A stretch of DNA of 64,000 bases from Geothermobacter ehrlichii (lineage in GTDB: Bacteria; Desulfobacterota; Desulfuromonadia; Desulfuromonadales; Geothermobacteraceae): contig NZ_VNIB01000002.1 of the NCBI RefSeq assembly GCF_008124615.1, forward strand, positions 168,528-232,527, in the 5' to 3' direction. Positions 6,195 through 21,922 of this stretch are shown here, piece by piece; the first letter of the stretch is position 1, and the number at the start of each line of letters is the position of its first letter. Below the pieces are notes generated by a model. It worked only from the letters and a program-made list of their open reading frames with translations. It had not been told where the DNA came from and made no database searches. Both the position numbers and the translations under genes were made by a program.

Positions 6195-7127
6195 ATGGCG
6201 AGGCAGGTGCGGGCTCTGGAGTTTTTCTGTGGTATCGGCGGTTTCGCCGCAGCGGTGCGGGGGCATGATGTCGAGGTGGTGTGCGCCTTCGATCAGAACC
6301 TCTCCGCCATCGGGGTCTACCGGCACAACTTTCCGGAGCATGAGGTCCGCACCGGGAATCTCGAACGGATTACCCCGGACGATCTGGCGTCGCTGCCGGC
6401 CGATTTCTGGTGGCTCTCTCCGCCCTGTCAGCCCTATTCGGTGCGCGGCCGCGGTGCCGATCTCGACGATCCCAGGGCGCGCAGCCTGATGCATCTGCTC
6501 GATATTCTGCGACAGTTGCCCGGCGAGCTGCGGCCTCGCAACCTGGCGCTGGAAAACGTGACCGGTTTTGCCCGCTCGCGTGCCCGCAGAATGCTGCTCG
6601 CGTGCCTGCAGGACCTCGGCTACCGGATTCGCGAATGCACCCTCTGTCCGACCGAACTCGGCATTCCCATGCGGCGGCCGCGCTACTACCTGGCCGCCAG
6701 TCGTTCCTTTCTGGCCGCCCCGGATCCTGTCGCCCGGCCGCCCATGCGGCCGCTGGCGGACTATCTTTTGCCGGAGGCTGCCGTCGATCCGCGGCTGCTG
6801 CTGCCGGCCGAGATCGTCGAAAGGTTCGGCAACGGGTTCAGGATTCTCGAACCGGCCGCCGACGACGCCTACACCACCTGCTTTACCGCCGGCTACGGCA
6901 AGTCGCTGATGCATGCCGGCTCCTACCTGCGTTGCGGGCCTGGGGTGCGACGGTTCGCCCCGATGGAGATTGCCGCGCTGCTGCACTTTCCCGCCGATTT
7001 CCGTTTTCCAGCCGGCATGTCGTTGCGCCAGTGCTGGAAGCTGCTGGGCAACAGCCTGTCGGTGGCGGCCGTCAGGCAGGTTCTGCGGCAGTTTTTCTAC
7101 CCTTCGACCGGGGAGGATGAAGGTTGA
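6195..7127 (+). CDS. Dnmt2-like (TRDMT1 family) tRNA cytosine-C5 methyltransferase
   Basis: A 310-residue C5-methyltransferase. Motif I is EFFCGIGG, motif IV SPPCQPYSVRG with catalytic Cys78, motif VI ALENVTGF and motif VIII RPRYYLAAS. Dnmt2 hallmarks are present: the CFT signature (YTTCFTAGYGKSLMHAGSYL, about residue 229), the SLMHLLDIL and CPTELGIPMRRPRYYL segments that align with human DNMT2, and a near-absent target-recognition region. Bacterial Dnmt2 proteins are rare; the Geobacter enzyme methylates tRNA-Glu. No restriction partner is adjacent, which supports an RNA rather than R-M role. The ATG is close to GGAAGG; a GTG six codons in is possible. Confidence 0.85.
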   Translation: MARQVRALEFFCGIGGFAAAVRGHDVEVVCAFDQNLSAIGVYRHNFPEHEVRTGNLERITPDDLASLPADFWWLSPPCQPYSVRGRGADLDDPRARSLMHLLDILRQLPGELRPRNLALENVTGFARSRARRMLLACLQDLGYRIRECTLCPTELGIPMRRPRYYLAASRSFLAAPDPVARPPMRPLADYLLPEAAVDPRLLLPAEIVERFGNGFRILEPAADDAYTTCFTAGYGKSLMHAGSYLRCGPGVRRFAPMEIAALLHFPADFRFPAGMSLRQCWKLLGNSLSVAAVRQVLRQFFYPSTGEDEG

Positions 7128-7896: not shown

Positions 7897-8568
7897 ATGG
7901 ATATCCGGAACCTGCTGCGTCAGAGCTACCTCTTCGCCGGCGTCAGTGACGGGGATCTCGACCGGCTGGCGGAGATTTCCCGGTTGCGGACAGCCCGCCG
8001 GGGTGAAGTCCTTTTCGCCGACGGCGATGAAGCCGAAGGCTTCTTCATTGTTGCCAGCGGCAAGGTGAAGATCTACAAGCTGTCGCCCGAGGGCAAGGAG
8101 CGCATCCTGCACATCATTCATCCCGGCTGGTCTTTCGCCGAGGCGGCCATCTTCGGCGATGGACGCTATCCGGCCTACGCCGAGCCGCTGGCGACGTCGG
8201 AGCTGCTCTTTTTGCCGCGCACCGCCTTTCTCGATCTGCTCGCCCGGCACAACCAGCTGGCACTCAACATGATCGGTGGCCTGTCACGTTTCCTGCGGCA
8301 GTTCGTCACCCAGATCGAAGAACTGACCTTCAAGGACGTTCCCGCCCGTCTCGCCCGTTATCTGCTCGATCTGGCCTGTTCCGCAGATCATGTCGAACTG
8401 CCAATTTCCAAGACCCAGCTCGCCTCCAATCTCGGCACGGTCAGCGAAACCCTTTCCCGTACCTTTCGTCGCCTCTCCGACGAAGGATTGATCCGGGTCG
8501 CCGGCAAACGCATCGATATTCTCGATCGCGAGGGGTTGATCATGCTTTCCCGGACCTGCAAGGAATGA
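7897..8568 (+). CDS. Crp/Fnr-family transcription regulator
   Basis: A 223-residue regulator with an N-terminal cyclic-nucleotide-binding beta-roll (residues 10-125; RGEVLFADGDEAEGFFIVASGKVKIYKLS) and a C-terminal winged helix (HTH ISKTQLASNLGTVSETLSRT, about 170-190). No Fnr-type N-terminal cysteine cluster is present, so it is not an Fe-S oxygen sensor. HcpR or DNR-type nitrosative-stress regulators have this layout. The palindromes at 17081 and 19479 would suit such a protein; this link is inferred. Start follows GGGGGAG. Confidence 0.88.
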   Translation: MDIRNLLRQSYLFAGVSDGDLDRLAEISRLRTARRGEVLFADGDEAEGFFIVASGKVKIYKLSPEGKERILHIIHPGWSFAEAAIFGDGRYPAYAEPLATSELLFLPRTAFLDLLARHNQLALNMIGGLSRFLRQFVTQIEELTFKDVPARLARYLLDLACSADHVELPISKTQLASNLGTVSETLSRTFRRLSDEGLIRVAGKRIDILDREGLIMLSRTCKE

Positions 8569-10388
8569 TTCGTTTCATCTGATTTCTCCTGCAAGGCTGA
8601 GCCGTCTATTGGCTGGCACCGTACGTCTGGTCGCCCCAATCCGTATCCCTGCTAAAGAGTCGATCCAGTCGGGTCGATAAGAAGAATGCAATTTTGCGCC
8701 CTGGCAATGTCGCCCGGTGCGCGAACCTGCGTGGGGGATGCGATGGGTCGCGATAAGAAAAAAAACAGATCGCTGCTGTTGATGGCCTTTCTCTGTCTGC
8801 TGATCGGCATTGGCGTTCCGCTGCTCAATCTGGCCTACATCTATCCCTATTTTTCCCGTTTCGCCATCGAGGACGTCAAGGAAGACACGGTGCGCGTCTC
8901 CAAATTGCTCAGTCGTGTCGTCCTGAATGACGACAACTGGCGTGACTGGATCAGCAAGGGAATGGTGCCCGACTTTCTGGCCGACGATCTGGCCCGAGCG
9001 GCAGGAGAGATCGAGCTGATCAAGCTGAAGTTCTTTCTGGCCAACGGCCGTACCATCTACTCCACCGACATCGCCGATGTCGGCAAGAGAAACACCGCCG
9101 ATTTTTTTCGGCATCAGGTCGCCAGCGGCCGGATTTTCGCCCGGCTTGTCAGCAGGGCGCATGATTCTGCCGGTGGGCGGGTTTCCCGGCAGGATGTGGT
9201 CGAGGTTTTTGTGCCGGTGATGCACCAGGGCCGGTTTGTCGGGGCCTTTGAACTCAATGTCGACGTAACCGACCGCATCGAGGCCCTGCACGGACTGCTG
9301 CTGAAGCTGTCGATCATTCCCACCGTTCTTCTGCTGCTGGCCATGGGCATCATGCTCTGGCTGATGCGGAATCTCAATTTCTATATCCAGGCGCAGCTGG
9401 ACACTGAAGAAGATCTTATCAAGGCCCTCGATGAATCCTGGCAGTTGACCGAGGAGATGGCCGCCAGCCAGCGGCAGCTGGTACAGCAGGCGGAAGAGCT
9501 GGAGGAGTTGAATCGGCAACTCAAGGAAGCGCAGGCACAGATGCTGCAGCGCGAAAAGATGGCCTCCATCGGCCAGCTGGCTGCCGGTGTGGCGCATGAG
9601 ATCAACAACCCGGTCGGATTTGTCAGCAGCAATATCCGTACGCTGAAAAAATATTTCGATAAGTTCATCACTTTTGTGCAAAAGGTTGAGAGTCTTGTCG
9701 ATGGGCAGCCCGATTCCAGACTGCAGGAACAGCTGCGTAAGATCGAGCGCGAACTGCGCCTGGCGCAGGTGATGGAGGATGTTCCCGAGCTGATCGCCGA
9801 ATCTTGCGAAGGGATGCAACGGGTCAAGGAGATCGTGCTGAATCTCAAGAGTTTCTCCCGCGTCGACAACACGGAACGGCAGCAGGCCAATCTCAACGAC
9901 TGTCTCGAATCGACCCTGAAGATCGTCTGGAACGAACTCAAGTACAAGGCCAGGGTCGAGTGCGACTATGGCGAGCTGCCGAACATTTACTGCCGGCCGC
10001 AGGAGCTGAACCAGGTGTTCATGAACCTGCTGGTCAATGCCGCGCACGCCATCGAAAAAGAAGGTGAAATCCGCATTCGCACCTGGGCCGATGACGACGA
10101 GGTGCACGTGGCCATCAGCGATACCGGCAGCGGCATACCGGAGGAAATCAGACAGCGCATTTTCGAGCCCTTCTTCACCACCAAGGAGGTCGGCAAGGGG
10201 ACCGGGCTCGGGCTGAGCATCTCCTGGGATATCGTTCAGAAGCACGGCGGACGTCTCGAAGTGGATTCCGAGGTGGGCAAGGGGACGACTTTCACCATTT
10301 CTTTGCCACGCCGAGAGTCCGATGCCGACGAAGAGATGGAGGCGAGATCACAACAGGAAGTTACCAAGACGACAGTCGAGGAAGAGAA

Positions 10389-12527
<2,139 letters not shown>

Positions 12528-12548
12528 AGCTGACGAAAGCGAGGAGGT

Positions 12549-13448
12549 ATGGAAAACCGTTCCATCCTGACCGGAGAGCAGATCCGGATCCTCTGTGTCG
12601 ATGACGAGCGCAACGTGCTGAAGGCGCTGCGTCGCATATTCATCGACGATGACTGGGAGATTTTTGTCGCCGAGTCGGCGACTGAAGGCCTGGAGATTCT
12701 CAGGCAGGAAGAGGAGATCCAGCTGGTGGTGTCCGATTACCGGATGCCGGGCATGAACGGTGTCGAGTTTCTCGGAGAAGTCTGCCGTTACTGGCCGGAT
12801 ACCATTCGCATCGTCCTTTCCGGTTATGCCGACGCCGCTTCCATTGTCGCCGCCATCAACGAGGGCCAGATCTACAAGTTCATACCCAAACCCTGGAACG
12901 ACGACGAGCTGAAGGTAACCCTGCAGACCGCTCTCGAGCATTATTTCCTGCAGAAGAAAAACCGGGAACTGATGGCCCAGCTGCGGCAAACCAACAGTGA
13001 ACTCGAACATATCAACGACCATCTCGAACAATTGGTGCTCGAACGCACCGAAAAACTGCAGATCCAGAACGAGGCCCTGCAGATCTCGCAGAGCATCCTC
13101 GACGCTCTTCCCGTCGGCGTGATCGGACTCGATCTCGAAGGGATGGTCGTGCGGACCAACAGGGTGGGGATGCACTTTCTGGGGCTGGACAATGAATTCG
13201 TGGTCGGTCTGTCCCGTTTCGAAGTGTTGCCGGATGAGCTGAACCGTCTGGTCGACGGCCTTGAAGACAGACACTGTATCCAGGGAGAGTTCGAGATTTC
13301 CGGCCGGGTCTTGAAATACTGGGTGACGCGGCTGAGCAACCCCCGGCAGGAGGGACTGATCGTCAGCCTGGTCGATGCGAGCGGAAGGAGGCTCTGCGAC
13401 ACTTTCGCCGAGGACTGGACAGGAGACGGCTTATGTCTGATGGCGTAG
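12549..13448 (+). CDS. REC-coiled coil-PAS signalling protein
   Basis: 299 residues. The receiver domain (about 12-130) has the acidic pair CVDDE, phospho-Asp63 in SDYRMPG, the Thr/Ser switch VLSGYAD and Lys in FIPKPW. A coiled coil (about 135-175) leads to a PAS fold (about 180-290). There is no DNA-binding or enzymatic output, so it probably relays or scaffolds a signal. ATG 12549 follows GAGGAGG. The 3' end overlaps the HD-GYP gene by 16 bp. Confidence 0.85.
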   Translation: MENRSILTGEQIRILCVDDERNVLKALRRIFIDDDWEIFVAESATEGLEILRQEEEIQLVVSDYRMPGMNGVEFLGEVCRYWPDTIRIVLSGYADAASIVAAINEGQIYKFIPKPWNDDELKVTLQTALEHYFLQKKNRELMAQLRQTNSELEHINDHLEQLVLERTEKLQIQNEALQISQSILDALPVGVIGLDLEGMVVRTNRVGMHFLGLDNEFVVGLSRFEVLPDELNRLVDGLEDRHCIQGEFEISGRVLKYWVTRLSNPRQEGLIVSLVDASGRRLCDTFAEDWTGDGLCLMA

Positions 13449-14782
13449 AGTTGCGCGACCTGAAGGTTCTTTTCGTTGACGACGAAAAGAACATTCTCTC
13501 TTCGCTGCGGCGTCTGACCGTAGACGAAGAATTCGAAACGCTTACCGCATCGTCCGGAGCGGAAGGGCTCGAGTTGCTGCGTGCCGAAGAGAATATCGGC
13601 CTGGTGGTATCGGACCAGCGCATGCCCGAGATGACCGGAGCCGAGTTTCTGGCCGAGGTGCGCAGGCTCTGCCCCGACATCCCGCGCATTGTTCTGACCG
13701 GCTATGCCGATATCGACGCGGCCATGGACGCCATCAACAAGGGGGGCGCCTGCCGCTATATCAAGAAACCCTGGGACAACGACGAACTGCTTCAGGTTCT
13801 GCGAGGTGAACTGCAACGCTATCGGCTGCTGCTCGAAAACCGACAGTTGCAGGAGGTCATCCGACAGAAGAACGAGGAACTGGCCGAGTGGAACCGAAAC
13901 CTGAAGAAGCGGGTACTCGAACAGACCCGTGAAATCAGGGTCAGGAACGAACAGCTCCACGAGCAGAACGCGGAACTGCAGAGGACCCTGCACGGAACCA
14001 TCGAGGCGCTGTCGACCCTGGTCGAGCTGCGCGACAGGTCGTCCGCCGGTCACTCGGTCAATGTTGCCCATGTTTCCGAGGCTATCGCGCGTGGCCTGGG
14101 CCTGGGTGAAGAGGACGTGCAGATCATTGTCGAGGCCGCGCTGCTTCATGACATCGGCAAGATAGGCATTCCCGGCCGGCTTCTGGGGCAGGATCCAGAT
14201 GAGATGACAGGGGATGACCGAGCGGCCTACCTCAAGCACGCCATCCTGGGACAACTGGCCATCGACAAGATTGTCAGACTGCGGCCGGCCGGAGAGCTGG
14301 TTCGGCATCATCATGAATGGTACGATGGCAGCGGCTATCCTGACCGGCTTGCCGGAGAGCGCATCCCGCTCGGTGCGCGTATCATCGCCCTGGCCGACTA
14401 TGCCGATCACAACCTGGGCAAAAAGGCTGACTTGGACAACATCAAGAAAGTTCTGCTTCGTATCGAGGAACAGTGCGGCGATCGCTTCGATCCCTACCTG
14501 TTTCCGCACCTGCGGCAGCCGGTCATCGAACTGTACGGCAAGCTGGTCTGTGCCGGTGACAAGGTCGGGGCCATTCTCGAACCGCGTGAACTGCGTGTCG
14601 GCATGGTGCTGGCGGAGAATCTCTACAGCGGTACCGGTCTGATGCTGCTCAAGGAAGGCACGGTTCTGGAGAAAAAACATCTCGATTCGATCATGCGCTA
14701 TCACATGATCGATCCATTCCCGGGCGGCGTAACCGTTCTCGTCGACCGTCTCGAGCAGTCGGCGGCCATGGACGCGGACTGA
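13433..14782 (+). CDS. REC-HD-GYP cyclic-di-GMP phosphodiesterase
   Basis: 449 residues of the RpfG type. The receiver domain (about 8-125) has phospho-Asp61 in SDQRMPE; a coiled coil spans about 135-190; the HD-GYP domain starts near 200 with HSVNVA, the metal pair LLHDIGKIG near 239 and HHHEWYDGSGYP near 296. The enzyme cleaves cyclic di-GMP in two steps to GMP. Downstream of two kinases and a REC-PAS protein it is the likely output of the operon. A C-terminal VTVLVDRL segment after the phosphodiesterase core is typical of Geobacter homologues. Confidence 0.92.
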   Translation: MSDGVELRDLKVLFVDDEKNILSSLRRLTVDEEFETLTASSGAEGLELLRAEENIGLVVSDQRMPEMTGAEFLAEVRRLCPDIPRIVLTGYADIDAAMDAINKGGACRYIKKPWDNDELLQVLRGELQRYRLLLENRQLQEVIRQKNEELAEWNRNLKKRVLEQTREIRVRNEQLHEQNAELQRTLHGTIEALSTLVELRDRSSAGHSVNVAHVSEAIARGLGLGEEDVQIIVEAALLHDIGKIGIPGRLLGQDPDEMTGDDRAAYLKHAILGQLAIDKIVRLRPAGELVRHHHEWYDGSGYPDRLAGERIPLGARIIALADYADHNLGKKADLDNIKKVLLRIEEQCGDRFDPYLFPHLRQPVIELYGKLVCAGDKVGAILEPRELRVGMVLAENLYSGTGLMLLKEGTVLEKKHLDSIMRYHMIDPFPGGVTVLVDRLEQSAAMDAD

Positions 14783-14870
14783 TTGATGTGGTTTAATGTC
14801 ATTTCCCTCGGGCCTGTTTGAATGAACCGCCGTTGATTCCGACGGGTTGGCAAACTGGGCATGACGACGA

Positions 14871-15034
14871 CCTGAATCAATGAGCTCATCACCGGCGGAT
14901 AGCACAAAGTCTTTGACCTGCCTGCTTTTCTCAAAAATCGCCGACGAACCTGTGGGTGCGCCTCAGATTTTTGAGAAACGCATTCAGGCCAAGCACATGC
15001 ACTCTCCATCCGGCATGAACTCACTGATTCAGGG
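14871..15034. repeat. palindromic MITE-like intergenic repeat, copy A
   Basis: A 164-bp element with terminal inverted repeats: CCTGAATCAATGAGCTCATC at the left end and the reverse complement of CCCTGAATCAGTGAGTTCAT at the right end. An inner 13-bp inverted repeat (TTTCTCAAAAATC at 14927-14939 and its complement at 14966-14978) could form a second stem. The right two-thirds, read on the minus strand, matches 54899-54998. No coding capacity. It sits between the HD-GYP gene and the next operon. Confidence 0.75.
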
Positions 15035-15054
15035 TCGAGAGAGGAGTCTCTCCG

Positions 15055-15633
15055 TTGTTCCGGACATGGGTTTTCATGTTTCTGGCTGTATTGCTGCTTG
15101 GCGTTTTTATCCCGTCGCCGGCGGAAACGGCCGAGAAAATACTCATCATCCCGGGGTCCGGGGACAGCCAGCACCTGCTGCGTCACCTGGTTGACATATT
15201 CAATCGCAGGACTGGTCTCCTTGTGGCCATACCTGACAGTGTCGGCAACAGCGGTGGCATCCGGCAGGTACTGAAGGGGAGGGTGAAACTGGTCCGAGTG
15301 GCGAGAAGGCTGACGGAAAACGAAGCAAGCGCCGGACAGGTTGTTTATCCCACCCTGGAAATGCGTCGGGTTTTGATGCGGACTGTCGGAAGCATCGGCT
15401 ATCTCCCCCTGTCGGCGACAAGGGATTCGGGGCTGACTATTCTGTGGATCGACGGAGTTGCTCCCGATGGGGTCACCACCGAAAATGGTCGTTACCCCTA
15501 TGTCGTCCCCCTGGCGCTGGTGTGGAAACCGCCCCTTTCCGGAATCGCCGCCCGTTTCAAGGACTATCTCTTTTCCGCCGAAGCCCGTCGGGTGATGCAG
15601 GCGTTCGGCGCCTTTCCGGTAGGAGTCGACTGA
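15055..15633 (+). CDS. PstS-like periplasmic substrate-binding protein
   Basis: 192 residues with a signal peptide (FMFLAVLLLGVFIPSPAETA) and a short PBP-like domain: the DSVGNSGGIRQVLKG segment is the phosphate-type ligand loop and the C-terminal FKDYLFSAEARRVMQAFGAFPV is the usual end of PstS-like proteins. It is about half the size of a full PstS, so it is probably a sensor ligand-binding protein. The start is TTG 15055, supported by GAGGAG eight bases upstream. It ends one base before the Cache-HAMP-PAS gene, and the two probably work together. Confidence 0.75.
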   Translation: MFRTWVFMFLAVLLLGVFIPSPAETAEKILIIPGSGDSQHLLRHLVDIFNRRTGLLVAIPDSVGNSGGIRQVLKGRVKLVRVARRLTENEASAGQVVYPTLEMRRVLMRTVGSIGYLPLSATRDSGLTILWIDGVAPDGVTTENGRYPYVVPLALVWKPPLSGIAARFKDYLFSAEARRVMQAFGAFPVGVD

Positions 15634-15634
15634 C

Positions 15635-17083
15635 ATGCTCCGGTCGATCCGTTCCCGCATTCTCGCCAGCCACCTCGGCATCGTTCTGCTGGTGCTGGTG
15701 GTGCTTGGCCCGACCGCCTATTATCTGCTCAAGGGACAGCTGCTGCGTCAGCGGCTTGCCAACCTTAACTTCCTCGCCGGGCACATGGCCGGCATGGTCG
15801 AACAGCGCTTGCGGCAACGGGAATCCGATCTGGTTCAGCTGGTGGCGGGGCGGTTGGTGCAGGATTTTCCGGAAACAGCCAGGGTTTCCGCCCTGGCCGA
15901 GTATTTTTCCGGTTATCAGGACCGTTTTCCCGTTATCGCCTACATGGACGGAAAAGGCTGGGAAGAGCTGCGCGTGGTTCGCGGCCGTGATCTGCCTTAT
16001 CTTGGCCCCTTTGTCGATGCCGGTTTGTTCGCCGCGGCCCGTGAACGTCCCAACAGGGTGGTTCGGGGAACGGTCATGCAGTCGGAAAGTCTGGGGGAGG
16101 CGGTCATTCCCCTGATGTACGGCATCCGGAGATATTTCGGTGATGAGTTCGTTGGTGCGGTCTATGCCCAGGTGACCCTTGCCGATCTGACCGGATTTTT
16201 GCGAACGATCGAGGTCGGTCGTTCAGGGTACTTGGTCCTGATCGACAGGGAGGGGCTGATTCTCGCGTATCCCGCACCGGGCCGCGTCATGAGCCGTCTT
16301 GACGCTTCCGGAATGCAGGATCCGGTTGTCGCCCAGGCCCTGTCCGGACGATCGGGAGAGGGGAAGGGACGGTTGTTCGGAGTCGAGGCGTTGATGGCCT
16401 ATGCTCCGGTTCCGGACCTGAACGCCACCCTGCTGGCTGTCCTGCCCATGGCGGAATTCATGGAAGCGCCGCGCAAGCTGCGTGATACCATCCTGCTGGT
16501 GATCGGGGGGTTGATTGTCGCCGCGACCCTGCTGGCCACGCTGCTGGCCTCGCGTCTGACCCGTCCGCTTCTCGCCCTGACCCAGACGGTGCGCCGGGTG
16601 GCGGCGGGAGATCTGCCGGAGAAGCTCGATATCCCGACCACCGGCGACGAGGTCGATCAGCTGGTGGAATCCTTCGGCCAGATGATCACCGAACTGCGGC
16701 ACTCGATGATTTCACGTCACTACTTCGACCGCATTCTCGACAGCATGGGCGAAGGTCTGGTGCTGATCGGGCTGGACGGCCATATTCGCACCGCCAATCA
16801 GGTGGCGTGCGAGCTCATCGGCCTGAGGGAGCAGGAGCTTGTCGGCCGGAACCTGGGAGATCTCTTCGCCGGTGGGGACGTCGACGAGGAACCCTGGCTG
16901 CAGGTGCTTCTGGGCCGTCCGGAAGAACGGATGGGACGGAAGATCCTTCGCACCGCGACCGGTGACGTGCCGGTCCGGTTCGTCTGGACCGTGCTGGAAG
17001 ATCCTGCCGGCCGGGTGCAGGAGGTCGCCTGCCTGTTTGCCGCCGACATCGCGGTCGAGAAGTGTCGCTCGGGCGAAACCTGA
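15635..17083 (+). CDS. dCache-HAMP-PAS membrane sensor without output domain
   Basis: 482 residues. One membrane helix at about 12-33, a periplasmic double-Cache domain (about 40-280), a second helix at about 287-310, HAMP (about 310-365, ending in TTGDEVDQLVESFGQM) and a PAS domain (about 370-475). The protein stops after PAS: no kinase, GGDEF or methyl-acceptor part is present and no frameshifted continuation is seen downstream. It could act through a partner kinase. The upstream PstS-like protein is a likely ligand-binding partner. Confidence 0.85.
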   Translation: MLRSIRSRILASHLGIVLLVLVVLGPTAYYLLKGQLLRQRLANLNFLAGHMAGMVEQRLRQRESDLVQLVAGRLVQDFPETARVSALAEYFSGYQDRFPVIAYMDGKGWEELRVVRGRDLPYLGPFVDAGLFAAARERPNRVVRGTVMQSESLGEAVIPLMYGIRRYFGDEFVGAVYAQVTLADLTGFLRTIEVGRSGYLVLIDREGLILAYPAPGRVMSRLDASGMQDPVVAQALSGRSGEGKGRLFGVEALMAYAPVPDLNATLLAVLPMAEFMEAPRKLRDTILLVIGGLIVAATLLATLLASRLTRPLLALTQTVRRVAAGDLPEKLDIPTTGDEVDQLVESFGQMITELRHSMISRHYFDRILDSMGEGLVLIGLDGHIRTANQVACELIGLREQELVGRNLGDLFAGGDVDEEPWLQVLLGRPEERMGRKILRTATGDVPVRFVWTVLEDPAGRVQEVACLFAADIAVEKCRSGET

Positions 17084-17092
17084 CCTGGGTCA
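17081..17092. promoter_or_regulatory. Crp/Fnr-type palindrome (candidate HcpR-like site)
   Basis: TGACCTGGGTCA, flanked by C and A, is centred at 17086.5, 42.5 bp before ATG 17129. It shares the wording TGACC-N2-GGTCAAGG with the site at 19479. The centre is a typical distance for a class II activator if transcription starts close to the ATG. Binding by the regulator at 7897 is inference. Confidence 0.4.
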
Positions 17093-17128
17093 AGGCCGTT
17101 GTCCGCCGTTTCTGTCAAGGTTGTTCTC

Positions 17129-18202
17129 ATGATGCGTCGATTTATCCGTACTGCCGTTCGATTTCGCTTTCAGTCCGTTGTGCACCTGATCGTTCTGGGC
17201 GTCCTGATCGCCGGCAGCGGTTGCGTCAGGATTCGACAAACCCCGGCGGTCGGTGGTTCGGAAAAACACGATTGCCTGATGCGCTGGGATGCCGCCGGCA
17301 ACCGGCTGGCCGCAACGGTGCCCGGAGGGCTGGTGCTGCTCGATGTCCGGAGCGGCGAGCGCCATCGGTTCGTCCTGCCCGCTGTAACGGCGTTCGACTG
17401 GCTTCCCGGCAGCGATGAACTGCTGGTCTCGACGGCAACGAAAGACGGCTGCCGCCTGTGGCGGGCCCGGATGGCAGGCGATCCCGTTCTCTGGCGCGAA
17501 CTGGCTGGTGCCTGCCGGTCGCTTGTTGCCGACGAAACAGGTGTTTGGGTGCTGACCGAGCGGTTGTCGCAATTCACTTTCGGCGGCAACCTGCGCCTTG
17601 CACTGACACGGATCGATGCTGCAGGGATCAGCGACAGTGTTCTCGCCGACCTGACCCTGAGTCCGGCCATGGCCCGTCGACTCGCTGTTTTGCGGCAACA
17701 GGCCCGCTGGAGCGCCCTCAGTCCCCAGCGTGACATTCTGCTGTACGCCGAACCGCACGATCCTCCCGCCATGGCCCCCTACCTGAGGTTCATGGCGCGC
17801 CACCTGGTTTCGGGCGCCAGCTGGCCCATCGTCAGTCTGCCGTGGACGGTGGAAACCGTCCGGTTCTCGCCGGACGGCGAAACTGTCGAGCTGCGGGAAC
17901 GGTCGGGGCCGTGGCGCCGGTTCGACCTCTGGACCGGCGAAGAACAGAAGGCCGGTACGGTTTTCCCGGCCGCTGCAACCGAGACGGGCAAATCAGGTAT
18001 CTGTTCTTCATTCAGTCCGGACGGAAAGTTTCTGGCTGCCCGGCAACAGGGAAAAATCATGCTGGCTCCGAAAGTGCCGGATGCTGGAAGGTTGCCAGAC
18101 CTTCAGGACACGCGTCGGCTCGAGTTGCGCCGGTGGCGAAGCCGCGGACTGATTGATGGTGAAGACTATCGCACTTTTCTGGAAAGGATCGACCGACTGT
18201 GA
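17129..18202 (+). CDS. exported beta-propeller-like protein
   Basis: 357 residues from ATG 17129 (AAGG eight bases upstream). A basic start and hydrophobic stretch (SVVHLIVLGVLIAGSGC) form a signal sequence or anchor; the Cys context is a poor lipobox, so lipidation is uncertain. The rest has WD40/TolB-like repeats, e.g. RWDAAGNRLAATVPGGLVLLDVRSGE, VETVRFSPDGETVEL and CSSFSPDGKFLAA. Its stop overlaps the start of the multihaem cytochrome gene by 4 bp, so they are cotranslated; it may assist or interact with the cytochrome in the periplasm. Confidence 0.75.
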   Translation: MMRRFIRTAVRFRFQSVVHLIVLGVLIAGSGCVRIRQTPAVGGSEKHDCLMRWDAAGNRLAATVPGGLVLLDVRSGERHRFVLPAVTAFDWLPGSDELLVSTATKDGCRLWRARMAGDPVLWRELAGACRSLVADETGVWVLTERLSQFTFGGNLRLALTRIDAAGISDSVLADLTLSPAMARRLAVLRQQARWSALSPQRDILLYAEPHDPPAMAPYLRFMARHLVSGASWPIVSLPWTVETVRFSPDGETVELRERSGPWRRFDLWTGEEQKAGTVFPAAATETGKSGICSSFSPDGKFLAARQQGKIMLAPKVPDAGRLPDLQDTRRLELRRWRSRGLIDGEDYRTFLERIDRL

Positions 18203-19482
18203 GACTCTTTCTGTTGTGCCTCTTTCTTCTCTTGCCGGCCGGGCAGCTGCTGGCCGCCGATTGCGCCGGCTGTCATGACGACAGAACGCCCGGCATTGTC
18301 GACCAGTGGCGGCAGAGCGCCCATGCCCGGGCCGGAATCGGCTGCGCCGATTGCCACGGCGAGGACCACGAACGCATCCTGGACGGTCAGGTTCGGGTTT
18401 CGGCCACCGTCTGCGGCCGGTGTCACGACCGGGAATGGCGGCAGCACGCCGCCAGCCGCCACGGTCTCGGTCTGCATTCCGGTTGGGGGTGCACCCGCAA
18501 CCTGCCCGGCCGCGACCGCAACGAATGCGCTTTCTGTCACCGGGGAGGGACGGCTCTGCCGGTCAGCACCGTCAATTGTGCCCGGTTTCTCGAACAGAGC
18601 AGCGCCATGGGGCAGGTTGGCTGCAACCGCTGTCACCAGGTCGAGAACGCCTGCGGCAGCTGCCACGGCAATCATCTGACAGATCTTTCCATCGTTCGTG
18701 ATCCGCAGGTCTGCGCCAAGTGCCACATGGGTCCGGACCATCCGCAGTGGGAGATGTGGCAGACCAGCCAGCACGGACAGCTCTGGCGCCTGAAGGGTGA
18801 AAAGGTCGCGCCCTCCTGCCAGGGGTGCCACATGCCGGACGGCACCCACGATGTTTCCGGCGGCATCGCCCACACGCCGGGAGGCAAAAGCCTGGCGGAC
18901 GATCTGGCGCCGGCGAGGCGCGAAGCCATGCTGGACGTCTGCAGCCGCTGCCATGCCGCGTCGTTCGTCCGCAGGGAGCTCGAGCGGGGCGATGCCGTTC
19001 TGGCCGAGAGCCGCGATCTGGTGGAAGAGGCGGCGGAACTGATCGAGGATCTGGCCTCCCGCGGCCTGTTGCGACCTATGCCGGAGGATCGACCACCGCA
19101 TCCGCTGCGCGGCAAAAGCCTTGTTCTCGATGGCCAGATGCTGTACGAAGACACCTCCGGCATCGAAAGTCTCTTTTTCCGGTTGAAGAAGTTCGCCTTC
19201 GCCAAGACCTGGAAGGGGGCCTTTCATCAGAACCCGGCCTGGGCCCACTGGTACGGCAACGCCGAACTGAAACTGCTTCTGGAACAGATCCGCTCCGAGG
19301 CGGACCGGCTGGAACACTTTGCGACCGGGGAGAAGGCTGTCTCCGAGTCGCAGGTCGATCGGACGACCAGCGAACTCGACCGGCTGCGGCGGGAGCATGA
19401 GCGGGGACGGCTGGACGATGCCGCCTACCGCAAGGCCCGGACAGAGCTGCTTGAAAGCTGGCTGAAAAAGGATGCCCCTTGA
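18199..19482 (+). CDS. HAO-like multihaem cytochrome c (nine CXXCH)
   Basis: 427 residues with a signal peptide (LFLLCLFLLLPAGQLLAAD). Nine CXXCH motifs are seen: CAGCH, CADCH, CGRCH, CAFCH, CNRCH, CGSCH, CAKCH, CQGCH and CSRCH. The phrase CAKCHMGPDHPQWEMWQTSQHG is diagnostic of the hydroxylamine oxidoreductase (octahaem) family. The C-terminal third is helical and haem-free. HAO-like proteins in anaerobes act on hydroxylamine, nitrite or NO, some reductively. Nine rather than eight motifs is unusual. The gene is coupled to the upstream beta-propeller gene and precedes ygbA. Confidence 0.85.
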   Translation: MRLFLLCLFLLLPAGQLLAADCAGCHDDRTPGIVDQWRQSAHARAGIGCADCHGEDHERILDGQVRVSATVCGRCHDREWRQHAASRHGLGLHSGWGCTRNLPGRDRNECAFCHRGGTALPVSTVNCARFLEQSSAMGQVGCNRCHQVENACGSCHGNHLTDLSIVRDPQVCAKCHMGPDHPQWEMWQTSQHGQLWRLKGEKVAPSCQGCHMPDGTHDVSGGIAHTPGGKSLADDLAPARREAMLDVCSRCHAASFVRRELERGDAVLAESRDLVEEAAELIEDLASRGLLRPMPEDRPPHPLRGKSLVLDGQMLYEDTSGIESLFFRLKKFAFAKTWKGAFHQNPAWAHWYGNAELKLLLEQIRSEADRLEHFATGEKAVSESQVDRTTSELDRLRREHERGRLDDAAYRKARTELLESWLKKDAP

Positions 19483-19492
19483 CCCTGGTCAA
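19479..19492. promoter_or_regulatory. TTGACC-N2-GGTCAA palindrome upstream of ygbA
   Basis: TTGACCCTGGTCAA is a perfect 6-2-6 palindrome centred at 19485.5, 41.5 bp before ATG 19527. A possible -10 (TAGTCT) lies at about 19515. HcpR and DNR-type Crp/Fnr regulators use related sites and YgbA-family genes are members of such nitrosative-stress regulons. The sequence is seen directly; the regulator is inferred. Confidence 0.55.
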
Positions 19493-19526
19493 GGCTGTCG
19501 CGGTCGGAACGGTGTAGTCTGCAGGC

Positions 19527-19898
19527 ATGAAGACGAATCTTGAACAGCGCCAGCTTACGCGTCGCGAGATCAAGGATTTGCGGGTGCTGATCCGCTTCAC
19601 CGAGGTCTATTGCCGGGCCCACCATCCCGATCGCGAGCGGCGGCCGTTGCAGTTGACCGAGGACGCGGGGCTGAATGCCGGCCGCTTCCGTTTCTGCGAC
19701 GAATGCGTTGAATTTCTCGACTATGCCGTGCAGCGGCGGCTGCGCTGCCCGCTCGATCCCAAGCCGGCCTGCAAGCACTGCCCGGTGCACTGCTACAAGC
19801 CGCAGATGCGGCAACGGGTGCGTGAGGTCATGCGCTTTGCCGGGCCCTACCTGATGAAACGCGGCCGGCTCGATCTGCTGTGGCACTACCTGTTCTGA
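19527..19898 (+). CDS. ygbA: nitrous oxide-stimulated promoter family protein (YgbA)
   Basis: 123 residues of the YgbA_NO family. Conserved Cys-rich segments are FCDECVEFLDYA, RCPLDPKPACKHCPVHCYKP and the C-terminal MRFAGPYLMKR. The Cys arrangement suggests an Fe-S or metal site. In other bacteria ygbA is among the genes most strongly induced by nitric oxide; the biochemical function is not settled. The palindrome just upstream and the preceding HAO-like cytochrome fit a nitrosative-stress role. The ribosome site is weak, so a leaderless or short-leader transcript is possible. Confidence 0.85.
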   Translation: MKTNLEQRQLTRREIKDLRVLIRFTEVYCRAHHPDRERRPLQLTEDAGLNAGRFRFCDECVEFLDYAVQRRLRCPLDPKPACKHCPVHCYKPQMRQRVREVMRFAGPYLMKRGRLDLLWHYLF

Positions 19899-19961
19899 GG
19901 GGATTCCGAAAGCATTCGGCCAGTTCGCCGGAGCAAACCAGATTCGAACGGAGAGACGATC

Positions 19962-20714
19962 ATGATTCGCGAAATTGTCAGAATCGACGAAGAAAAATGC
20001 AACGGCTGCGGCCTGTGCGTGCCCGCCTGCGCCGAGGGTGCCATCCAGATCATCGACGGCAAGGCGCGGCTGATCGCCGACAACCTCTGCGACGGTCTTG
20101 GCGCCTGCCTGGGTGAGTGTCCGCAGGATGCCATCAGCATCGAGCGACGCGAGGCGGATGAATTCGACGAAGAGGCGGTCGAGGCCCATCTCGGACACAA
20201 GCCGCAGGCGCATCCGCCTTCTGCCGGCGGTTGCCCTTCAGCCGCCGTCAAGACCTTTACGCCGCCGGCAGGCGGCTGCCCCTCGGCGCAGCTGCGGAGT
20301 TTCGGCCAGGGCGACGCGCCGTCGGATGCCGACGTTGCCGGCCGAAGACCATCCGAACTGCGGCAATGGCCGGTTCAGCTGCACCTGGTGCCGCCCACGG
20401 CGCCCTTTCTGCAGGAAGCCGACGTGTTGCTGGCCGCCGACTGTGTTCCTTTTGCCTACGCCGATTTTCATAAGGATCTGCTCAAGGGCAAGGCGCTGCT
20501 TATCGCCTGCCCCAAGCTGGACGACACATCGCCCTATGTGGAGAAGCTGTCCGCCATGATCCGGCAGGGGCGCATCCGCAGCCTCACCGTCGCCCACATG
20601 GAAGTTCCCTGCTGCGGCGGGCTGATCTTCATGGCCCGGCAGGCGATCGAGGCCAGTGGTGTCGAGATTCCCTTCGAGACCATCAATATCGGTATTCAGG
20701 GAGAGCGCAAATAG
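19962..20714 (+). CDS. 4Fe-4S ferredoxin-type protein
   Basis: 250 residues. Two 4Fe-4S motifs at the N-terminus (CNGCGLCVPAC at 13-23 and CDGLGACLGEC at about 43-53) are followed by a flexible linker with two GGCPSA repeats, then a larger globular domain containing CPKLDD and PCCGGL cysteines. Similar ferredoxin-linked proteins accompany hydroxylamine reductase (Hcp) or nitrosative-stress genes in related bacteria, but no hcp gene is in the window. The gene lies 63 bp after ygbA on the same strand and ends at a strong terminator. Confidence 0.8.
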   Translation: MIREIVRIDEEKCNGCGLCVPACAEGAIQIIDGKARLIADNLCDGLGACLGECPQDAISIERREADEFDEEAVEAHLGHKPQAHPPSAGGCPSAAVKTFTPPAGGCPSAQLRSFGQGDAPSDADVAGRRPSELRQWPVQLHLVPPTAPFLQEADVLLAADCVPFAYADFHKDLLKGKALLIACPKLDDTSPYVEKLSAMIRQGRIRSLTVAHMEVPCCGGLIFMARQAIEASGVEIPFETINIGIQGERK

Positions 20715-20749
20715 GGACAGACAGGACTTTGCGCGACAGGGCCGGATAC

Positions 20750-20783
20750 AAAAAGCCGGGGAGCCAAGCTCCCCGGCTTTTTG
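20750..20783. terminator. bidirectional intrinsic terminator
   Basis: A stem AAAAGCCGGGGAGC/GCTCCCCGGCTTTT with a 3-base loop, an A-run on the left and a T-run on the right. It serves both the Fe-S gene (plus) and the Gly-rich gene (minus). Confidence 0.9.
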
Positions 20784-20792
20784 CTGCCCGGA

Positions 20793-21098
20793 TTATTCCT
20801 GGTCGTGGAGTTCCGGGTCTCTGACGCGCAACCGCTGCCGGTCCTGGCTGGCGGTCCCGGCCTGAAGCCCCTTTTCTGCCCGGGCCTGAGTCTGGTTCCG
20901 GTATTGGTTCTGGTTGCCGGCCTGCTGCCGAGCGGACAGCTGGCAGTTGCCGCGATTGTAGCTGTGGCTGTAACTTTTGCCGCCACCGCCACCGCCACCG
21001 CCACCGCCACGACCGCCACCCCGTCCGGCCAGCGCCGTTCCCGCGGTTGCTGTCAGCAGAGTCACACAGACCAGGGCAATGATACTTTTTCTGTTCAT
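20793..21098 (-). CDS. secreted Gly-rich small protein
   Basis: 101 residues. A signal peptide (MNRKSIIALVCVTLLTATAG, cleavage after TALA) is followed by an RGGGRG plus ten-Gly tract, then a Gln/Asn/Arg-rich, disordered tail. The start lies seven bases after AAAGGAG. No family is known; Gly-rich secreted peptides of this kind may be cell-surface or adhesive. It is alone on the minus strand. Confidence 0.6.
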   Translation of the reverse strand: MNRKSIIALVCVTLLTATAGTALAGRGGGRGGGGGGGGGGKSYSHSYNRGNCQLSARQQAGNQNQYRNQTQARAEKGLQAGTASQDRQRLRVRDPELHDQE

Positions 21099-21517: not shown

Positions 21518-21922
21518 ATGGAACTTATCAAGTGGCGAGATGCCTACAACACCGGCATCGGCATGTTCGACGAAGAGCACCGCTGCCTGGTGACGATGAT
21601 CAACCGCCTCTACACGGCCCTGCGGGAAGGGAAAGAAGAAACGGTGGTGAAGGCGATCCTCGAGGAGCTGATCAACTACACCCGGGAGCACTTCGCCCAC
21701 GAAGAAGAACTCATGGAACGGCACGGGTACCCCGAACTCGACGCGCACCGTTTCGAGCACAATTCTTTCCGCAGCACCATCCGTGACCTGTCCCGCATGG
21801 TGAACCAGGGGATCGATGGCCTGGGACGGCCGCTGCTGCAGATGCTGCGTGACTGGCTGATGCATCACATTCAGGAGGTCGATGCCCGGTACGGACGTTT
21901 TTTCAGCGAACAGGAGCTGTGA
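21518..21922 (+). CDS. bacteriohemerythrin
   Basis: 134 residues forming the four-helix di-iron O2-binding fold. The metal ligands are visible: His21 in DEEHRCL, His58 and Glu62 in REHFAHEEELM, His77 in DAHRFEHN, and His116 with Asp121 in HHIQEVD. Such proteins bind O2 or NO and protect or supply oxidases and sensors in microaerophiles and anaerobes. GCGGAGGCAG precedes the ATG. The REC-PilZ gene follows after 49 bp and may be cotranscribed. Confidence 0.92.
   Translation: MELIKWRDAYNTGIGMFDEEHRCLVTMINRLYTALREGKEETVVKAILEELINYTREHFAHEEELMERHGYPELDAHRFEHNSFRSTIRDLSRMVNQGIDGLGRPLLQMLRDWLMHHIQEVDARYGRFFSEQEL

Follow-up and report, generated by a model that had tools for sequence, protein, structure and literature searches.

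The closest described counterpart of the locus reported here is the HcpR1 regulon. In 2005 an HcpR1 motif, wyTTGACnnnnGTCAArw (TTGACnnnnGTCAA), was predicted for Geobacter, Desulfuromonas and Desulfotalea; regulators that go with it have a serine or proline at position 180 and a glutamate at 181 in their recognition helix and lack the FNR cysteines, and the HcpR targets named were hcp, frdX, dnrN, ndh, nrfHA and cytochrome c-like genes (Rodionov et al., PMC1274295). Our locus lies in a 64,000-nucleotide stretch of the Geothermobacter ehrlichii genome (contig NZ_VNIB01000002.1, positions 168,528 to 232,527, forward strand; hereafter the window). It comprises two Crp/Fnr-type sites, one before genes for a beta-propeller protein and a nine-haem cytochrome, the other before ygbA and a gene for a ferredoxin-type iron-sulphur (Fe-S) protein. 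With the HcpR1 regulon it shares the motif, the helix residues, the lack of FNR cysteines, and targets of the hcp, frdX, ndh and nrfHA type. It differs in that ygbA, which the main text of the 2005 paper mentions once, as an E. coli NsrR target, appears here as an HcpR1-type member. Neither the propeller/nine-haem pair nor a leaderless message, as predicted here, was found in the passages of that text consulted, its tables, figures and supplements apart.

Two other systems resemble the locus in part. DNR of Pseudomonas aeruginosa, a haem sensor of nitric oxide (NO), is the closest structure to our regulator and recognizes TTGAT-type sites, but it controls denitrification, unlike the gene set here, and haem binding by our regulator is presumed. 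In E. coli and Salmonella the NsrR regulon also places ygbA in an NO-defence set, with hcp and ytfE, and the function of ygbA is unknown in that work too (PMC2884951). NsrR, however, is a repressor and a different regulator, and E. coli ygbA has a Shine-Dalgarno sequence, unlike the ygbA predicted here to be leaderless.

We put at roughly 0.78 the probability that the two sites serve HcpR1-type class II activation of an NO-defence set, with a leaderless ygbA and perhaps a leaderless propeller gene. A first-pass annotation of the window had proposed a nitrosative-stress regulon under a Crp/Fnr regulator encoded at 7897, and that proposal is supported by the motif, the recognition helix, the gene neighbourhood in relatives and a site before the genome's own hcp. 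The HcpR1 kind of the regulon and the leaderless implication of 42 bp to an ATG go beyond it. In the passages of the literature consulted, the 2005 tables apart, we did not find ygbA and the propeller/nine-haem operon as HcpR1 members or, above all, promoters locked to a start codon. No paper on leaderless messages with YgbA or with HcpR was found in the openly accessible literature searched.

Two sites about 42 bp before start codons

The sites and the genes concerned are as follows.
17078 to 17095, + strand: site 1, ACCTGACC-TG-GGTCAAGG, centre 42.5 bp before the propeller ATG at 17129
19477 to 19494, + strand: site 2, CCTTGACC-CT-GGTCAAGG, centre 41.5 bp before the ygbA ATG at 19527
7897 to 8568, + strand: REG, HcpR1/DNR-type Crp/Fnr regulator (PF00027 and PF13545)
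17129 to 18202, + strand: PROP, beta-propeller lipoprotein (predicted model with pLDDT 82; WD40-type matches with E down to 1e-9; lipobox by eye)
18199 to 19482, + strand: CYT, nine-haem HAO-family cytochrome (nine CxxCH motifs; GTG start overlapping the end of PROP)
19527 to 19898, + strand: ygbA, predicted leaderless with a 5' leader of 0-2 nt (PF11756 and NF007714 above cut-off)
19962 to 20714, + strand: FrdX-like ferredoxin-type Fe-S protein (own Shine-Dalgarno; homologues follow ygbA in many relatives)

Both sites had been placed by the first-pass annotation, at 17081 and 19480 and each about 42 bp before a start codon, and both are read directly in the sequence: 17081-17095 reads TGACCTGGGTCAAGG and 19480-19494 reads TGACCCTGGTCAAGG, at the distances listed above. 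Site 2 is a perfect 18-bp palindrome, and site 1 has an imperfect left half (ACCTGACC). The TGA of each site is also the stop codon of the upstream open reading frame (ORFs 15635-17083 and 18199-19482). That the sites are mere 3' ends of the preceding genes was rejected, as the preceding gene varies among relatives and the site is kept.

By itself, the 12-mer TGACCnnGGTCA is weak evidence and proves little. The window holds five exact places and one with a single mismatch, against a shuffle mean of 2.09, and six or more were reached in 3 of 100 shuffles. Extended to a 15-mer by the AAGG tail, it occurs at four places in the 3.24-Mb genome (reversed control, 0), of which the remaining two lie within coding frames, one of a histidine kinase and one of another Crp/Fnr gene. 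We therefore dropped the 15-mer as a genome-wide regulon marker and used a promoter pattern with a -10 box instead. A looser scan of the same genome, with two mismatches allowed, gave 74 places versus 38 for its control. The sites stand beyond chance because they are conserved in relatives, and we take both to be real and the initial observation to be confirmed.

Conservation of the gene unit and its sites

YgbA was matched in 88 of 118 relatives searched and the regulator in 116 (E up to 0.001, paralogues included). We fetched 81 ygbA loci from 80 genomes, the window included; these represent 80 of the 88 matching genomes, with six weak matches (G007, G029, G046, G074, G082, G086) and two good ones (G061, G092) left out. 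Within the fetched stretches, which often end at contig ends and so give lower bounds, at least 48 loci carry REG, at least 54 frdX, at least 21 CYT and at least 20 PROP. Common gene orders are REG-ygbA-frdX and REG-PROP-CYT-ygbA-frdX.

A perfect TTGAYnnnnRTCAA within 200 bp upstream was found before ygbA at 38 of 79 loci (two of the 81 were set aside for want of a usable start or of enough upstream sequence), before PROP at 16 of 20 and before frdX at 44 of 54. REG (0/48) and CYT (0/21), the controls from the same loci, had none in that range. At least one perfect site precedes PROP, ygbA or frdX in 58 of the 79 clusters.

Predicted activator sites locked to the start codon

At a class II promoter the activator site has its centre at -41.5 from the transcript start, and the -10 box spans -12 to -7. 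We compared these positions with the distance from site centre to ATG, using starts taken from protein alignment, blind to the site, and an interval of 40.5-43.5 bp that was fixed after a first look. Of the perfect sites, 26/38 before ygbA and 12/16 before PROP fell in this interval, versus 0/44 before frdX, where the distance was 63.5-102.5 bp. The difference from frdX (Fisher) had p values of 1.6e-12 for ygbA and 1.3e-9 for PROP when counted by loci, and 2.8e-7 and 2.8e-5 when counted by genera. Perfect sites at the locked distance before ygbA come from 17 genera in 12 families; with one-mismatch sites included, 29 ygbA loci (18 genera, 13 families) and 14 PROP loci (8 genera, 5 families) are locked.

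The 44 frdX promoters were aligned on the site and therefore fix the -10 position independently of the ATG. They show T-12 in 73%, A-11 in 95%, T-7 in 93% and G-14 in 77%, with C-1 and A+1 preferred (66% each). At the same position, the locked ygbA loci have T-12 in 72%, A-11 in 66% and T-7 in 62% (n=29), and the locked PROP loci a weaker box (T-7 57%, A-11 43%; n=14); in both groups the ATG falls near +1. A hexamer with at least four of six -10 matches, starting at -14 to -11, was present at 26/29 locked ygbA and 12/14 locked PROP loci, compared with 0/54 for frdX and 2/21 for CYT. With -5 kcal/mol as the upper limit, pairing to the 16S tail was seen for all 54 frdX genes, 18/21 CYT, 21/48 REG, 5/29 locked ygbA and 0/14 locked PROP. 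Weak pairing is also common at the other ygbA loci and at REG, and a missing Shine-Dalgarno alone is therefore no marker of the locked group.

In the window, the -10 positions are:
19515 to 19520, + strand: -10 box of the ygbA promoter, TAGTCT, whose TAG is an in-frame stop before the ATG
17116 to 17121, + strand: expected -10 position of site 1, reading CAAGGT, a poor match

The first base of the ygbA box lies 29.5 bp after the site centre, which agrees with class II geometry, and there is no other start codon between its TAG and the ATG. A consensus promoter scan of 16900-20850 returned no sigma-70-like promoter. Together, the site-to-ATG lock and the -10 position imply that ygbA, and perhaps PROP, should be leaderless. 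We take the evidence for leaderless ygbA messages in the order to be indirect but strong. The claim is weak for the propeller gene of G. ehrlichii itself, whose -10 box is poor. We consider it likely that in much of the order ygbA or the propeller/cytochrome operon before it is read without a leader, from a class II promoter of the HcpR1 kind in which the activator site keeps a locked distance to the start codon.

A pattern with the ATG in place of the -10 box, TTGAYnnnnRTCAA-N33-35-ATG, matched in at least 101 of the 118 genomes; many matches resemble coding sequence, and they were excluded from the counts. At 17 of 48 loci the regulator gene has a TAnnnT hexamer of its own starting 11-14 bases before the ATG, with an extended TG in 16 of the 17 and weak Shine-Dalgarno scores. 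These leaderless-type loci are L103-L105, L107, L113, L118-L120, L122, L126, L128, L135, L141, L142, L149, L190 and L208; the REG of the window differs from them in having GGGGGAG upstream. In two other families of the class (L305, L306, L313, L314, L316, L318, L319), the sequence before ygbA is TTGAYnnnnGTCAT, which differs from the site by one base.

A regulator probably of the HcpR1 kind

REG had been described as a Crp/Fnr regulator without the Fnr cysteines, and the description holds: both Pfam domains are present, and no cysteine is invariant among 24 orthologues. The closest solved structure is DNR (3dkw, E 5.3e-36). The recognition helix reads S183-E184-x3-R188 (Ser-Glu-x3-Arg) in all 24 orthologues, and S183-E184 agrees with the HcpR1 helix rule in CRP numbering, the correspondence of positions being read by eye. 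We assign REG to HcpR1 by motif, helix and regulon, without comparison to a named HcpR1 protein sequence; on these features the regulon is largely of the known HcpR1 kind.

Two genes alone in this genome exceed the cut-off for PF00027 as well as PF13545, namely REG and one on contig C6, and REG is the better of the two. The C6 gene has the helix SSRQTISLL, unlike that of REG, and control by it was rejected since this helix does not fit. A third PF13545 match (contig C7:13591-13758, a 94-residue frame) is a remnant without sensor domain, and three sensor-domain genes that were read have no helix-turn-helix. The comparison covered the genes above cut-off; the genome further holds four PF13545 matches below it and two long sensor-domain genes.

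Other predicted members of the regulon

The promoter pattern TTGAYnnnnRTCAA-N22-TAnnnT was found at 122 places in 32 genomes versus 3 for the reversed control (summed by hand). Of these places, 95 were examined as single loci, 24 lay in clusters or loci already fetched and 3 were left out. Gene types at the 95 were assigned by short sequence signatures, and ten proteins were checked with Pfam, by which one is an NDH-2 and another a seven-haem member of family PF02335 (NrfA). The next gene was hcp at 24 places, a CHCFxDR-motif protein at 8, frdX at 5, an octahaem cytochrome at 4, another multihaem cytochrome at 5, ytfE/RIC at 4, a cupin at 4 and a polyferredoxin at 3.

Four pattern places lie in the G. 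ehrlichii genome itself, before ygbA, hcp, an octahaem cytochrome and a polyferredoxin. The expectation that hcp would share the site was borne out: TTGATTTGCGTCAA lies 233.5 bp before the ATG of the one gene reading as Hcp and is accompanied by a -10 box at the correct spacing. Sites of the TTGACnnnnGTCAA type thus stand before both hcp, in this genome, and frdX, in 44 of 54 clusters. The best solved relative of the octahaem cytochrome is 4qo5, with HAO next. The polyferredoxin ATG is at +2, and by this geometry the gene is predicted to be leaderless.

The CHCFxDR-motif protein, probably periplasmic, stands behind class II promoters at 8/95 places (L213, L239, L241, L246, L249, L253, L275, L293). 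The one such protein tested had no Pfam match, and we consider it a candidate for a new NO-response protein. The second PF03063 match of the genome, on contig C6, has no site within 420 bp; its neighbours are CooF- and CooC-like, and on that ground we read it as a CO dehydrogenase and not as Hcp. Together with the C6 Crp/Fnr gene of different helix, about 9 kb away, it probably represents a carbon monoxide system (180603-191771), judged by eye.

Proposed mechanism

From the sites, their spacing, the gene linkage, the -10 boxes and the helix residues we infer the following. An HcpR1-type regulator, most likely REG, would use sites 1 and 2 for class II activation. REG would be switched on, presumably by NO at a haem, and the active dimer would bind at -41.5 from the transcript start and recruit sigma-70 polymerase. 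It would activate the PROP/CYT pair and ygbA-frdX, as well as hcp, the octahaem HAO-related cytochrome and the polyferredoxin elsewhere in the genome. Transcription would start at the ATG of ygbA, and perhaps of PROP, to give a leaderless mRNA, while frdX would be translated from its own Shine-Dalgarno.

If this is correct, a stress regulon is wired for translation without Shine-Dalgarno pairing while frdX keeps ordinary leaders. A leaderless ygbA and a led frdX under the same activator would then be natural paired promoters for asking why a stress gene drops its leader, and the site-to-ATG lock would offer a way of predicting leaderless messages from sequence alone. An unannotated stretch becomes a testable regulon. 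In the order to which Geothermobacter belongs, the uncharacterised YgbA is assigned to a conserved unit whose members include an HAO-type cytochrome and an Fe-S protein.

Alternative explanations

Several observations weigh against this mechanism or narrow its reach. No perfect site precedes PROP, ygbA or frdX in 21/79 clusters, 20 of them in families f7 and f18, and 12 of the 38 perfect ygbA sites are unlocked; one of these (L144) has an in-frame ATG at +2. Within ygbA the Shine-Dalgarno contrast is modest (pairing at -5 or below at 5/29 locked versus 18/50 other loci), and a -10-like hexamer at the ATG also occurs at 12 of the 50 others. The ygbA of the window is itself one of the five locked loci with a G-rich stretch. 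Its upstream pairing of -8.0 probably comes from the CGGTG that lies 13-17 bases upstream of the ATG; with a transcript start further upstream, this CGGTG would act as a weak Shine-Dalgarno. The strict promoter pattern is not matched at site 1, where one half is imperfect and the -10 box is poor, and an AAGG ending 8 bases before the propeller ATG is a possible Shine-Dalgarno (score -4.4). Among the 95 pattern places, 38 were other or unclassed, including two before ygbA, one before PROP and three without an ORF.

The lock also appears to be peculiar to this order. In a phylum sample, 53 of 297 genomes matched YgbA, four of them inside the order. Outside the order none of 16 close YgbA homologues (L305-L320) had a site both perfect and locked; eight had perfect sites at 55.5-81.5 bp, and two had one-mismatch sites at 42.5 bp. 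The ygbA of E. coli K-12 has a clear Shine-Dalgarno.

The G-rich stretch before ygbA and the AAGG before the propeller gene would suit the same HcpR1 regulon with ordinary transcripts, in which starts lie further upstream, ygbA and PROP use weak Shine-Dalgarno sequences, and a repressor released by NO binds near or downstream of the start. HcpR2 of D. desulfuricans has been modelled as such a repressor (PMC5701242). However, ygbA and frdX have the -10 box equally far from the site, and the distance from site to ATG is locked for ygbA and PROP while it varies for frdX; a repressor site would need no such lock, and we regard ordinary transcripts as improbable. Somewhat less probable still is that the sites serve another Crp/Fnr protein, oxygen-sensing or general anaerobic, and that the nitrosative link is incidental. 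FNR-type TTGAT half-sites do occur in the motif set and the C6 gene has both Crp/Fnr domains, but among the genes read its helix differs from that of REG, the third gene is a remnant, and REG itself accompanies ygbA at 48 of 81 loci. Two palindromes near starts by chance might be suspected from a 12-mer core that is not rare in the window and from the two of four genomic 15-mer places that lie in coding frames. Conservation makes this very unlikely: ygbA has a perfect site at that same distance in 17 genera, spread over 12 families, and 0 of 69 were found before REG and CYT in the same loci. Class II activation by an HcpR1-type regulator, with a leaderless ygbA, is the explanation we prefer.

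The nine-haem cytochrome and other products of the cluster

The identities given by the first-pass annotation (a beta-propeller protein, a nine-haem HAO-like cytochrome, YgbA and an Fe-S protein) were upheld by Pfam, haem count and structure model. CYT is placed in the HAO family by its matches to 6t5e, 4n4j, 6h5l, 4fas and 1fgj; we take the first three to be anammox HAO-family cytochromes and the last two Nitrosomonas HAO. Whereas the family has eight c-haems, CYT has nine haem motifs, and nine CxxCH are present in all 21 homologues examined. In the alignment CYT retains the Asp-His pair found in the active site of HAO. At the position of HAO Tyr467, the cross-linking tyrosine, the pairwise alignment to 4fas shows a histidine in CYT, so the tyrosine of HAO proper is lacking and no tyrosine cross-link is expected. 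A nitrite-reducing HAO reportedly likewise lacks this cross-link. With Asp-His kept and histidine in place of Tyr467, CYT is expected to act as a reductase, of NO, nitrite or hydroxylamine.

Pfam propeller-repeat matches of PROP were below cut-off, and its predicted structure is a beta-propeller; Cys32 is invariant among 16 homologues in the alignment. YgbA has seven invariant cysteines across 42 sequences. A fold search with its predicted model (pLDDT 82) gave a best match of only E 3.7, and its matches among PDB sequences reached only E 0.17 and 0.19. That YgbA has a metal or Fe-S role would be a guess. The name FrdX was given by position and features, without the use of a named FrdX for comparison. 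The frdX of the window has no site of its own within 200 bp and is therefore probably read through from ygbA. The unit ends at:
20749 to 20783, + strand: intrinsic terminator hairpin (20740-20790 at -34.1 kcal/mol, z -5.3)
A consensus terminator scanner did not list this hairpin.

Neighbouring genes

REG and PROP are about 8.6 kb apart in the window, with mostly sensor and response-regulator genes between them. The interval 8686-17083 encodes two histidine-kinase-like proteins, two response regulators (one with an HD domain), a phosphate-binding-like protein and a Cache-HAMP-PAS protein. Part of this sensor block also lies upstream of PROP at L100 and L102, from two genomes of the genus of Geothermobacter hydrogeniphilus. 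Judged by eye, an ORF downstream of the cluster (21518-21922) resembles bacteriohaemerythrin, and another at 6195-7127 resembles a DNA cytosine methyltransferase.

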